From: Candidatus Pantoea edessiphila
Lineage (GTDB): Bacteria > Pseudomonadota > Gammaproteobacteria > Enterobacterales > Enterobacteriaceae
DNA: 64,000 nt
Assembly (NCBI RefSeq): GCF_002933355.1
Contig: NZ_PDKU01000002.1
Coordinates: 1-64,000 of the forward strand
Direction: 5' to 3'
Shown here: in pieces, positions 23,039 through 58,465 of the stretch
Layout of the letters: each line of letters begins with the position of its first letter
Numbering within the stretch: the stretch's first letter is position 1
The notes under the pieces: generated by a model
What the model was told of the DNA's origin: nothing
Databases searched by the model: none
Seen by the model: only the letters and a program-made list of their open reading frames with translations
Made by a program: the position numbers and the translations under genes

Positions 23039-23704
23039 TTAATTAACAACTGTTATAATTTTTCCTTTATTTAAGATATATGAGCGGTTATAAAAATTTA
23101 ACTTCGTAATAAAATTTTTATTATCAGTAATCATAATCCCTATTCCTATACTACTTAAATATTTAATAGCTTTTATTATCTTGTTATCTGAAACTATATC
23201 TATATTTGTAAACGGCTCATCCATTATGATAAATTTAGGATTTGCTGCTAACGCACGGATAATTTCTACAATTCTTCTATTACTTCCATATAATTCAGAT
23301 CCCATAATATTACTTAAGTGACCTATATTAAATTTATTTATTAAATCATTAGCATAGTTTTGATGCATTCCTCCTTTCAAATCTTTACGTATTTGAAGTA
23401 CAGATATTATGTTATCATAAACACTTAGTCGACGAAAAATTGAAGATTGTTTAGGGATAAATCCTATTCCTAATTGTGTACGTTCATGTAAAGATAGGTT
23501 ACTAATATCATTATTATTAATGATAATACTACCTGTATCATGAATAACTATTCCCATTAACATAAAACATATTATAGTCTTACCAGAATTCTTATGACCT
23601 ATAAGTCCAATAATTTCACCTGATTGTACCTGTAAATTTATATTATTAACTGAATTACAATATTTATATGTTTTAGTTAATTGTTTTGCAAATAATGTAA
23701 ACAT
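23039..23704 (-). CDS. lptB: LptB-like ABC ATPase, degenerate motifs
   Basis: LptB powers export of LPS from the inner membrane with LptFG, LptC and LptA. The 221-residue product aligns without gaps to E. coli LptB over residues 1-220 (E. coli 241) and keeps Walker A (G36-T43) and Walker B (FIIMDEPF, D162/E163). Other motifs are altered: Q-loop Gln85 is Lys, signature LSGGE (138-142) reads LYGSN, D-loop GVDP reads NIDI, and switch His195 is Asn. The last 20 or so residues are missing. These are residues needed for ATP hydrolysis in the family, so catalysis is doubtful although the frame is intact. lptC and lptA are absent: only 64 bp separate it from kdsC. It is either a gene in decay or one kept for another role. 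Confidence 0.85.
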   Translation of the reverse strand: MFTLFAKQLTKTYKYCNSVNNINLQVQSGEIIGLIGHKNSGKTIICFMLMGIVIHDTGSIIINNNDISNLSLHERTQLGIGFIPKQSSIFRRLSVYDNIISVLQIRKDLKGGMHQNYANDLINKFNIGHLSNIMGSELYGSNRRIVEIIRALAANPKFIIMDEPFTNIDIVSDNKIIKAIKYLSSIGIGIMITDNKNFITKLNFYNRSYILNKGKIITVVN

Positions 23705-23768
23705 AATGGTTCGTATTCTATTATGAATTAATAAAATTTTTAATTACAATACATTTTTATTGAATAAA

Positions 23769-24320
23769 TTAAATACTAATTTTATTTTGTGACATTAAAA
23801 TTAAATCACATAACTCTCGTATCGCACCACGTCCGCCAAAATTTTTCGTAATATAATGTGCATGAGACATTAACAATGGATGAGCATCTGGAACTGCTAC
23901 ACTTAATCCTACATGAGTCATAACTGGCAAATCAATTACATCATCTCCAATATAGGAGACTTGATAATCAGAGATTGATAACTTATTTAATAAGTCACGA
24001 TAAGCAATCAATTTATTAGATTGACCTTGATAAACATGATTAATCCCTAGTTTTTTACAACGTTCTTCTACTAAATGACAATGACGTCCACTAATAACAG
24101 CAACTATCAAACCAAAAGCTAAAAGACAACAAATTCCATAACCATCACGTACATTAAATTTTTTTAATTCTTCTCCAGAATTTCCTAAATATATTATACC
24201 ATCTGACATAACACCATCAACATCACAGATAAGTAACTTGATTTTGCTAGCACTATTCATAACAAAAACATCTACTGGACCGTAACATGTTTCAATGTTA
24301 ATATTTTTTAATTGCATCAT
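23769..24320 (-). CDS. kdsC: 3-deoxy-D-manno-octulosonate 8-phosphate phosphatase
   Basis: KdsC removes phosphate from KDO 8-phosphate to give KDO for LPS inner core. It belongs to the HAD family. The 183-residue product (E. coli 188) has the nucleophile motif CDVDGVMSDG, EELKKFNVRDGYG, ISGRHCHLVEERC, YQGQSNKL and YIGDDVIDLPVM, with GGRGAIRELCDL near the end. ATG 24320 (or the adjoining ATG 24317) is the probable start; the frame is open to a TTG at 24341. kdsD, which precedes it in E. coli, is not seen. Its intact motifs contrast with the degenerate lptB downstream. Confidence 0.94.
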   Translation of the reverse strand: MMQLKNINIETCYGPVDVFVMNSASKIKLLICDVDGVMSDGIIYLGNSGEELKKFNVRDGYGICCLLAFGLIVAVISGRHCHLVEERCKKLGINHVYQGQSNKLIAYRDLLNKLSISDYQVSYIGDDVIDLPVMTHVGLSVAVPDAHPLLMSHAHYITKNFGGRGAIRELCDLILMSQNKISI

Positions 24321-54239: not shown

Positions 54240-55745
54240 TTAATCTTCTACATTTAGTCCTACTCGATTCAATAAGTACTGTGATATCATTGCTACTGGT
54301 CTTCCAGTAGAACCTTTATATTTTCCTGATCTCCAAGCAGTACCAGCAATATCTATATGTGCCCAATTATATTTACGTGTAAAACGGGAGAGAAAACAAG
54401 CTGCGGTTATCACTCCTGCAGAACGACCACCGACATTTACCATATCTGCAAAACTAGAATCTAATTGATCATTATATTCATCAAACATAGGTAAACGCCA
54501 TGCGCGATCTCCTGACTGTTCAGATGCACTAATAAGATCATGTGCTAATGGATTATGATTTGATATTAGACCACTTGTATGATCACCTAAGGCAATTACA
54601 CAAGCTCCCGTTAAAGTTGCAATATCAATTACCGAATCTGGTTCAAAACGCTCAACATAAGTTAATGCATCACATAATATTAATCGACCTTCAGCATCTG
54701 TATTTAATACTTCAACTGTTTGACCTGACATTGTCGTTAGTACATCACCTGGACGAATAGCATTACCGTCTGGCATATTTTCACAATTTGCCATAATACC
54801 AATTACACTAATTGGCAAATTTAATTGTGCAACTACATGCATAATACCATATACTGCTGCAGCACCACACATGTCATATTTCATTTCTTCTAATCCACTA
54901 GATGGTTTTATAGAAATTCCTCCTGAATCAAATGTTACTCCTTTACCAATTAATACAATAGGTTTAGATATTGAATTATTAGGTTTATACTCAATAATTG
55001 ACATTAATGGTTGATTGTTTGAACCTTTACTTACTGCTAAATAGGCATTCATTCCTAATTTTTTCATTTGATCTTCTTCAAGGATAGTTGTATGAATATT
55101 ATCAAATGTTTCTGCAAGTTTATGTGATTGTAGTGCAAGATATTCAGTATTGCATATATTTGGTGGCATATTTCCAAGATCTTTGGCAATTTTTATACCA
55201 GTTGCAATCGCAAGGCCGTGTTGGATAGCTTTTTCTCCAATGGTAAGTTCACGTCTAGTGGTTACATTAAACACTAATTTACGCAATGGTCGTCTTATTT
55301 CTGTTTTATTAGTCTTTAATTGATCAAAATTATATAGCTCTTCTATAGAAGCTTCTACGGCTTGTCGTACCTTCCAATAAGTATTTCTTCCTTTAACATG
55401 TAGTTCAGTTAAAAAACATACTGATTCCATAGATCCTGTATGATTTAAAGTATTAATAATTTTTTGAATTATATGTTTATATTGACGTTCATTAAGTTCG
55501 CGCTCTTTTCCACACCCGATAAGCAGAATACGTTCTGATAGTATATTTGGTACATGATGTAATAGTAGAACTTGGCCTACTTTACCTTCAAGTTCACCTC
55601 GTCTTAATAAAGCACTAATATATCCGTCAGTAATTTTATCTAATTGTTCTGCAATAACGGATAAACGACGTGGTTCAAAAATACCAACTATAATACAAGC
55701 ACTACGTTGTTTTTCTGGGCTTCCACTTTTTACACTGAAATCCAT
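54240..55745 (-). CDS. pepA: Leucyl aminopeptidase PepA
   Basis: PepA is a hexameric dimetal aminopeptidase; in E. coli it also binds DNA in carAB control and Xer recombination at cer. The 501-residue product (E. coli 503) has [17 protein letters not shown] near the start, the metal site in [17 protein letters not shown] and [24 protein letters not shown], and the ending [19 protein letters not shown]. It is highly conserved compared with most neighbours. lptF and lptG, divergent from it in E. coli, are absent upstream. Confidence 0.96.
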
Positions 55746-56485
55746 GTATACTCCTGATTTTTTTGACAGTAAATTTTATCAAAGATAACAGTTACAGATA
55801 TTATTCTATTTGTAATATTTAATTATTATATTGGTTTCTACAAATAAATTTATAATAGGATTGTTATTTAAGTATATTGAAAATATTTTATAAAAAAATA
55901 ATATGTTAATTATTACAAAATTATTAGTTGATAAAAACAATAACTATTACATAGTTTATTTTAATAAATTTATATTAATATAAATTTTTCAAAAACATAA
56001 TAGAATAAATAATCAAATTTTTATTTTGAAAAATATTAATGATTTAATCAATCTATCTTTTTGCTATTTCATAATAAAGTAATTTTTTCAATATGATGAC
56101 ATTTTAATATATATTACTTAATAGAATTATGATTCTAAATCATATAGTTAAATTAACTTCAAATTATAACATCATAATGTTAGTATTTCATAATTTTATA
56201 AATTAATTTAATTTGAATGATTAATTAATATGATCTATTTGTTGAAATTATAACATAATGCATTTAATTTAGCTTTAAAACTAGTTAGTAACAGATCAAT
56301 AAAAAGCTTAATTTTCATTAAAAATATATTAATTTTTTTAAATTTAGAACTTTACTTTAAGACATGATCATTGATCAAAACAATTGTTGTTATTTTATTG
56401 TAAAAAAATTTCATATGTGTCATTATTAACTGAATAAAAATTAAAAATGATAATATTCTATCACATTGATTTTTTGATTTTAAAA
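55746..56485. other. Intergenic region pepA-tRNA-Leu, lptFG absent
   Basis: About 740 bp without a readable gene. In E. coli lptF and lptG begin here on the plus strand; I found no matching segment. It should include the pepA promoter and the tRNA-Leu promoter. Confidence 0.55.
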
Positions 56486-56570
56486 GCCGAAGTGGCGAAA
56501 ACAGGTAAACGCAGTTGATTCAAAATCAACCGTACGTGAGTACATGTCGGTTCAATTCCGACCTTCGGCA
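56486..56570 (+). tRNA. leuX: tRNA-Leu (CAA)
   Basis: An 85-nt type II tRNA with acceptor GCCGAAG/CTTCGGC, anticodon CAA at 56521-56523 in loop TTCAAAA, a long variable arm and T-loop TTCAATT. It matches E. coli leuX, which lies in the same region. The discriminator A is followed by TAC, so CCA is not encoded. Confidence 0.95.
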
Positions 56571-57508: not shown

Positions 57509-58465
57509 ATGACAATTGATTTATGTGATTTACCTGAAAATATATCACATTGGTCAAATTTTCCTATTCTTTTAACGAATGATGAAATAATAAAATTATA
57601 TTCTTATAACAAGGAAAGTTGGATATTATATGGTAAAAAATTAAATAAAGAAATTTTAATGAATTATAGAAAAGAACTTAAAATTGATTTAATAGTTACT
57701 AATTTTTGGATTATTGATGAATATAAAATAGCTTCTATAGGAGGATTAATTACATTATCTGCTATTATATTGGCAAACAAATTAGGATTAGATATAGCAC
57801 CACTAATGAATATTCCGAGTTTAAAAAAACCCGGATTATTAGTAATGGATATGGATTCAACAGCAATTCAAATTGAATGTATTGATGAAATTGCTAAATT
57901 AGCAGGATGTAGTGATGCGGTTGCTAAAATAACTAAACTTGCAATGCTTGGCAAAATAGATATGATTGAAAGTCTTCATCAACGTGTTGCTATGTTGAAG
58001 GGTGTTGATATAAGTATCCTTAAAATAATTTTGGATAATTTACCTTTAACTTCTGGTTTAATACAAATAGTTAATAAATTACATTTATTACATTGGAAAA
58101 TAGCTATTATATCTAGCGGATTTAAATATTATGCTTCTCATCTAGAAAGCAAACTTAACTTATCATATGTTATAGCTAACAATTTGGAAGTATATAATGG
58201 AAAGTTAACTGGGAAAATAATTGGTCCTATAGTTGATTCTAGATATAAACTCATAAGTTTAAAAAAAATCGCTCAAAGGTTACTAATACCTTTAGAACAA
58301 ACTGTAGCTGTAGGTGATGGTTTTAATGATTTATTAATGATAAAATCTGCAGCTTTAGGTATTGCGTATCATGCAAATTCTATTGTAAACAAACAAGTAG
58401 AAACAAAAATCGTTCATTCGGATCTAATGGGTATATTTTGTATACTTAGCAGTACTATACACTAA
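57509..58465 (+). CDS. serB: Phosphoserine phosphatase
   Basis: SerB makes serine from phosphoserine; it is a HAD-family enzyme. The 318-residue product (E. coli 322) has a drifted N-terminal ACT-like domain (1-100) and a catalytic domain with the nucleophile motif LLVMDMDSTAIQIECIDE (D114, D116), MLKGVD, ISSGFKYY and VGDGFNDLLMI. ATG 57509 follows AAAGGAAC. In E. coli radA and nadR follow; here there is a gap. Confidence 0.95.
   Translation: MTIDLCDLPENISHWSNFPILLTNDEIIKLYSYNKESWILYGKKLNKEILMNYRKELKIDLIVTNFWIIDEYKIASIGGLITLSAIILANKLGLDIAPLMNIPSLKKPGLLVMDMDSTAIQIECIDEIAKLAGCSDAVAKITKLAMLGKIDMIESLHQRVAMLKGVDISILKIILDNLPLTSGLIQIVNKLHLLHWKIAIISSGFKYYASHLESKLNLSYVIANNLEVYNGKLTGKIIGPIVDSRYKLISLKKIAQRLLIPLEQTVAVGDGFNDLLMIKSAALGIAYHANSIVNKQVETKIVHSDLMGIFCILSSTIH

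Follow-up and report, generated by a model that had tools for sequence, protein, structure and literature searches.

An altered LptB kept under purifying selection in Edessa stink-bug symbionts that have lost LPS export

Introduction

LptB is the ATPase that drives the LPS extractor LptB2FGC, an essential motor for which a single job is known. What, then, is an LptB with altered ATPase motifs doing beside an intact kdsC in the genome of an insect symbiont, with neither lptC nor lptA between the two genes? The question is raised by a stretch of 64,000 nucleotides (the window) that forms the opening 64 kb of contig C6 in the genome of Candidatus Pantoea edessiphila (G000; 837 kb, 12 contigs). 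An earlier note, made from the letters of the window, proposed that LPS export was lost or being lost in this lineage and that LptB had become a relaxed or repurposed ATPase. The genome was compared with those of four further symbionts of Edessa stink bugs (G001, G002, G004 and G005; n = 5 with G000, the "Ca. Pantoea edessiphila" group) and with a relative that has LPS genes (G003; 0.8 Mb, 30 contigs) and keeps a canonical LptB, along with lptC, lptA, lptF and lptG. The altered LptB of the Edessa symbionts is referred to here as LptB*.

The loss of lipid A synthesis in the Edessa symbionts, together with their orphan kdsC and lpxA, was published in 2021 (PMC8032781), and the loss of kdsB is given in the legend to figure 4 of that paper. 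The LPS loss itself is therefore already known. The main text of PMC8032781 contains none of the terms lpt, lptB, yhbG and purifying selection, and among the papers listed by literature searches, titles and opening lines of abstracts disclose no study of LptB in symbionts lacking LPS.

The LptB* frame and its locus

The features of the locus are given below in window coordinates; counts refer to the Edessa symbionts.

23039..23704, minus strand: altered LptB (LptB*), 221 aa, single ATG frame (from the ORF and comparison with E. coli)
23576..23599, minus strand: Walker A, GHKNSGKT; G36, G41, K42 and T43 kept in 5/5, A40S fixed in 5/5
23450..23452, minus strand: Q-loop position 85; Lys in 4/5 altered LptBs, Gln in G002
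23426..23437, minus strand: groove residues 90-93; F90, R91 and L93 kept in 5/5, R150 likewise kept
23279..23293, minus strand: signature motif LYGSN replacing LSGGE; E142N in 5/5
23216..23233, minus strand: Walker B, FIIMDE; D162 and E163 kept
23198..23209, minus strand: D-loop TNID replacing AGVD; G167N in 4/4 readable
23120..23122, minus strand: switch position 195, Asn in the window; N, N, Q and V across the four intact frames
23705..23768, minus strand: 64-bp spacer, where G003 has lptC and lptA (locus comparison)
23769..24320, minus strand: kdsC, intact, orphan; stop at 23769, ATG at 24320 or 24317
55746..56485, no strand: place of lptF-lptG adjoining pepA, both absent (tblastn of the window and genome-wide family search)

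The first 217 residues of LptB* share 49% identity with E. coli K-12 LptB. The frame is open, as the earlier note had said, but the alignment that it described as gap-free contains one inserted residue, directly after position 195. The same alignment displays each of the replacements that had been listed (Q85 to K, LSGGE to LYGSN, AGVD to TNID and H195 to N) and the loss of about 20 C-terminal residues, LptB* having none beyond about position 220. The reported lack of lptC and lptA, with 64 bp between kdsC and lptB, also held, tblastn with the E. coli proteins locating neither in the window, and lptF and lptG, noted as missing beside pepA (54240-55745, minus strand; a tRNA-Leu begins at 56486), occur nowhere within the 64 kb.

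The locus adjoining kdsC, and LptB as its nearest relative, identify LptB* as an orthologue of LptB. The window copy scores below both NCBIfam equivalog cut-offs (TIGR04406, 210 against 240 bits; NF008144, 240 against 381 bits), that of G004 lies above the TIGR04406 cut-off and below that of NF008144, and the canonical LptB of G003 is over both. LptB* has the Walker A Gly, Lys and Thr of an LptB, and a Walker B with the catalytic Glu, but lacks the Q-loop Gln, the LSGGE signature, the switch His and the C-terminal domain (230-241). Its predicted structure is that of an NBD (pLDDT 92.8, in a model that leans on canonical rows), and the top six PDB matches of this model are all LptB (TM 0.91-0.96); prediction from the four altered rows alone gave a pLDDT of 41.7.

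State of the LPS pathway and the outer membrane

Genome-wide family searches gave no match to LptF/G, LpxC, KdsA, the LptA/LptD-N domain or WaaA in any of the five Edessa symbionts (0/5 for each), whereas identical searches matched LptF/G, LpxC, KdsA, LptA and WaaA in G003, alone among the six genomes of the genus. The LptA/LptD-N search found LptA only, not lptD, in G003, and hence says little on lptD; lptC is missing at the kdsC-lptB locus. Ten ABC matches were obtained in G000, and the six over cut-off (PotA, SmdA, SmdB, ZnuC, SufC and LptB*) include no second LptB and no MsbA. Two of the four matches below cut-off read as AroK-like and FtsY-like. Retention of MsbA was considered and rejected, the two ABC exporters of 583-585 aa being SmdA and SmdB, which fall under the MsbA cut-offs. 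The loss of LPS export proposed in the earlier note is thus borne out, LptF/G, LptA, LpxC, KdsA and WaaA having no match in the genome; a second, canonical lptB with complete lpt genes elsewhere, which the note had named as the finding that would speak against its view, was sought across the genome, and neither LptF/G, LptA nor a second LptB was found.

A lipid A gene kept outside the window is the following:

L102:7268-8032 (G000 contig C6, about 77 kb past the window): orphan lpxA; lpxC not found, lpxD and lpxB missing from the site

The gene order in G000 is rseP-bamA-skp-fabZ-lpxA-rnhB-dnaE, with lpxD and lpxB missing from where they usually lie and lpxA left on its own. The latter is kept in G000, G001 and G002 and was not found at this site in G004 and G005; of the five Edessa symbionts, only G000 and G001 have kdsC at its locus. 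Because BamA is present in all six genomes of the genus, construction of an outer membrane probably continues.

BamA and Skp are intact (L102:3600-6601) despite the loss of LPS genes, and an LPS-free outer membrane is therefore probably still being assembled. The rseP gene of G003 (L104:12321-13658) lies in four pieces in different frames and is possibly broken in this LPS-positive relative. A 500-kb genome from another genus of the family (G010) has lptB in two pieces (L054:4622-5337), with lptF- and lptG-like frames still adjoining, perhaps an earlier stage of loss.

Selection on LptB*

The dN/dS of lptB across related symbionts, a check put forward in the earlier note, was estimated within the altered clade. 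Omega was 0.249 (CI 0.204-0.304; LRT against 1, 108) for the four intact frames and 0.207 (LRT 127) for 162 codons in five species. Two further codon-frequency models gave 0.33 (LRT 71) and 0.25 (LRT 103), the altered pairs 0.21-0.27 (6/6) and leave-one-out estimates 0.22-0.25. All omega values are approximate, synonymous sites being strongly diverged. Pairwise fits against G003 hit bounds in 10 pairs (2 lptB, 4 sspB and 4 ibaG), and all G003 pairs, converged or not, were excluded, the fits within the altered clade being used. In 100 simulations at an omega of 1, the LRT was at most 6.7, against 108 observed, and invariant residues numbered at most 46, against 78 observed. Identity among the altered genes is 0.77-0.84 at second and 0.58-0.63 at third codon positions. 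The genes used for comparison had omegas of 0.231 (sspB), 0.186 (ibaG), 0.134 (fabZ), 0.118 (murA) and 0.111 (sspA). Purifying selection on LptB* is about as strong as that on its neighbour sspB. With an omega twice that of murA and sspA, LptB* is less tightly constrained than core genes, and least so in residues 171-219 (omega 0.33, with 9 of 49 invariant).

LptB* might be taken for a dying gene under relaxed selection, given its altered catalytic motifs, its C-terminal loss and a protein that has changed faster than murA and sspA; in addition, the gene of G005 carries a frameshift at Walker B. The frame downstream of this shift is open, and the shift looks recent or like an assembly error; LptB* is thus either dispensable in G005 or the draft sequence is wrong. 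Against decay stand, in addition to the LRT of 108 and its null maximum of 6.7, the stops that neutrality should have brought: simulations calibrated on a third-position identity of 0.60, 0.65 or 0.70 yielded means of 8 to 12 stops per lineage (about 11), with 0 to 2 of 5000 runs stop-free per lineage and setting, and four of the five lineages have none, the fifth being G005 with its frameshift. The marks of a pseudogene (omega near 1, stops, frameshifts) are thus absent from LptB*, that single frameshift excepted. An internal control is provided by the place of kdsC beside lptB in G002, G004 and G005, which consists of 364-853 bp at 11-15% GC, with no open stretch longer than 47 aa and a best kdsC match of E 0.02 over 19 residues; kdsC is unrecognisable in these three genomes, but lptB still stands. 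The fixation of derived residues in 5/5, set out below, also argues against a dying gene, which we regard as quite unlikely. In the earlier note's pairing of relaxed or repurposed, it is the first term that gives way (omega 0.25, LRT 108, shared fixed derived residues and no stops in four lineages), and repurposed is the better half.

A derived state shared by the Edessa symbionts

R17N, A40S, P71S, R117Y and E142N are derived with respect to both E. coli and G003 in all five altered LptBs, as are G167N and L188I in the four that are readable there. The canonical reference consisted of 32 LptBs (E. coli, G003 and all 30 other loci; the canonical signature string was required, and none was dropped by it), among which A40, E142 and G167 show no variation, P71 and L188 next to none (0.94), and R17 and R117 vary. 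The four intact frames share a truncation, ending at 219-221 aa, and the comparison for G005 covers the N-terminal 162 codons. In the tree, based on 14 of the 37 aligned sequences, the altered LptBs form one clade (support 100), whose stem measures 0.49 substitutions per site; on murA+ibaG+fabZ the corresponding stem is 0.11. Alignment A4 included 14 of the 30 loci. The shared derived residues, the common truncation and the single supported clade with its long stem indicate that LptB most likely changed once, in the ancestor of the five Edessa symbionts.

This history bears on the idea that LPS was lost separately and recently in each symbiont, the selection signal dating from the LPS-export era of LptB. 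The mosaic of retained genes, with lpxA in G000, G001 and G002 and kdsC in G000 and G001, is what such losses might leave. Nevertheless, the altered signature is common to all five, the truncation to the four intact frames and the clade to one supported stem, and lpxC, lptFG, lptA, kdsA and waaA are missing in 5/5, making separate loss highly improbable.

The 32 canonical LptBs have 111 positions without variation. At 48 of these the four intact altered copies all keep the canonical residue, and at 17, among them S139, G141, E142, R145, G167, P170, H195 and R198, all four have replaced it. Y13, G36, G41, K42, T43, D162, F90, R91, L93 and R150 are kept in all five symbionts, and E163 in the four intact frames. 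Some features tell against a functional reading: no more than 48 of the 111 positions are kept, Walker A positions 37-39 vary among the altered LptBs, and the altered sites are not all fixed, with Gln85 retained in G002 and N, N, Q and V at position 195. Selection could be preserving no more than a foldable, non-toxic relic without a job, and the loosest constraint does fall at the switch region. Such a relic leaves the fixation of E142N, G167N and A40S unexplained, however, and the whole frame of lptB survives strong divergence, whereas kdsC and lpxA are lost in some sister species; we consider this reading unlikely.

Orphan KdsC and LpxA

The KdsC of the window is 61% identical to that of E. 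coli and scores 282 bits, against an NCBIfam equivalog cut-off of 208. The five Asp residues tested (D32, D34, D125, D126 and D129) are all kept, in agreement with the earlier description of kdsC as intact; K79 differs in G000 and G003. These we take to be the known site positions, and likewise the LpxA site numbers given below. Omega for KdsC is 0.113 between G000 and G001. The enzyme has neither kdsA nor waaA around it to form a KDO pathway. The paradox that the earlier note had seen in the making of KDO with no export route falls away: KdsA and WaaA were not found in the genome, and no KDO is expected. The puzzle that remains is a different one, an orphan KdsC with its Asp residues kept under selection, plus an orphan LpxA. 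The latter has an omega of 0.102 (0.076-0.138) in three genomes and keeps H122, H125, H144 and H160; A142 is replaced by Gly, in G003 too. The presence of lpxA is reported in PMC8032781, whereas selection on it does not figure in the text available from that paper. From their conserved residues, KdsC and LpxA look like working enzymes outside their own pathway. G004 keeps LptB* with neither LpxA nor KdsC at the usual places, so LptB* is independent of both there.

KdsC as a stand-in for serB was considered and rejected, since an ORF of 318 aa, presumably SerB-like, sits at 57509-58465. One HAD match was obtained in G004, against three in G000, and serB may therefore be lost in G004.

Search for a partner or a replaced function

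The LptF/G and MlaE families have no match in the Edessa symbionts, and FtsX-type searches gave weak hits only. Replacement of FtsE was rejected for G000, the FtsX hits being weak in four of the five symbionts (E 0.003 to 0.008) and all under cut-off; the hit in G000 is CyoA, and one in G003 reads likewise. Replacement of MlaF was rejected in the same way (MlaE in 0/6 genomes of the genus). Adenylate kinase activity has been reported for LptB2FG (PMC8633020), and a substitute role of this kind was rejected because adk is present in G000. Both BPD_transp_1 permeases of G000 stand beside PotA, and the four permease families searched (LptF/G, FtsX-type, MlaE and BPD_transp_1) contain no orphan permease for LptB*.

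This last result bears on whether LptB* could still be an active ATPase that drives some ABC permease, its unusual motifs being tolerated. The Walker A lysine, Walker B, the catalytic Glu, the A-loop Tyr and the docking groove are all kept, and the xNID motif resembles the D-loops of other ABC ATPases. In E. coli LptB, however, H195A is lethal and nearly abolishes the ATPase activity of the complex (PMC5082905, PMC8633020), and Y234, L235, G236 and F239 of the C-terminal domain, absent from LptB*, are needed (PMC6703430). With no orphan permease in the families searched, an active ATPase appears doubtful, though it deserves more weight than either decay or an idle relic.

Proposed role of LptB*

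LptB* would be a functional protein that has outlived the LPS export machine, and it probably does a new job. The LptB of the ancestor of the five Edessa symbionts most likely already had an ATP sandwich in which the signature Ser and Glu, the D-loop Gly and the switch His were replaced, and had lost its C-terminal domain. LptF/G and key genes of the LPS pathway are no longer present, and purifying selection has since held the altered protein. Retention of the A-loop Tyr, of the lysine and threonine of Walker A, and of Walker B with E163 suggests that ATP may still be bound. With the signature, D-loop and switch changed and the C-terminal domain lost, LptB* would be unlikely to form a homodimer that hydrolyses ATP at two sites. 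In E. coli, the groove cluster touches the coupling helices of LptF/G (PMC5082905). Its retention in LptB* (F90, R91, L93 and R150) suggests docking on a partner, which would no longer be LptF/G; this retention has a P of 0.03 given 48 of 111 positions kept, for residues chosen afterwards, is weak alone and could reflect fold stability.

The nucleotide-binding residues and the docking face are kept, and the changes fall on the trans side of the ATP sandwich and on the switch. The role suggested by this pattern is that of a docking subunit that would bind (or sense) ATP and turn it over slowly or not at all. That LptB* has been retained and repurposed is, as a claim by itself, one in which we have considerable confidence. 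The fuller reading, in which the repurposed LptB binds ATP, docks on a further protein and hardly hydrolyses, would have roughly an even chance of being right, the ATP-binding, non-hydrolysing, docking mechanism being its weak part. Judged by its motifs, this version of the LPS-export ATPase is probably non-pumping. More tentatively, LptB* could, in an LPS-free outer membrane, be the non-pumping, ATP-binding docking subunit of a new membrane partner, a neofunctionalised ABC NBD without a transporter.

LptB* survives under selection after the departure of LptF/G and key LPS genes, altered alike in five species. It offers a natural system for asking which functions are left to an ABC ATPase once its transporter is gone, and which of its parts (ATP pocket, docking groove) suffice. 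Together with an orphan KdsC and LpxA under strong selection, it indicates that genes left over from a lost pathway in a reduced genome are not necessarily relics, a point to bear in mind when gene-loss tables are read for symbionts in which outer-membrane assembly genes (BamA, Skp) persist without LPS.

Comparison with known systems

The LPS loss described in PMC8032781 concerns the same group of genomes, with lipid A genes lost and lpxA and kdsC left as orphans; its main text does not mention LptB. E. coli LptB (PDB 4p31, 6mgf, 6mbn) resembles LptB* in kdsC-lptB order, in sequence (49% identity) and in modelled fold, and the Walker A lysine, Walker B, A-loop Tyr and LptF/G groove are common to both. 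LptB* differs from it in the company it keeps (no match to LptF/G or LptA, and no lptC at the locus), in having lost the signature Ser and Glu, Q85, H195 and the C-terminal domain, and in falling under both equivalog cut-offs. A parallel for its motifs is offered by the degenerate ATP sites of heterodimeric ABC transporters of the TM287/288 and CFTR type, in which, as in LptB*, the ATP-binding half is kept and the hydrolysis residues are changed. In TM287/288 and CFTR, however, one canonical site is left per dimer, whereas a homodimer of LptB* would have two altered sites.
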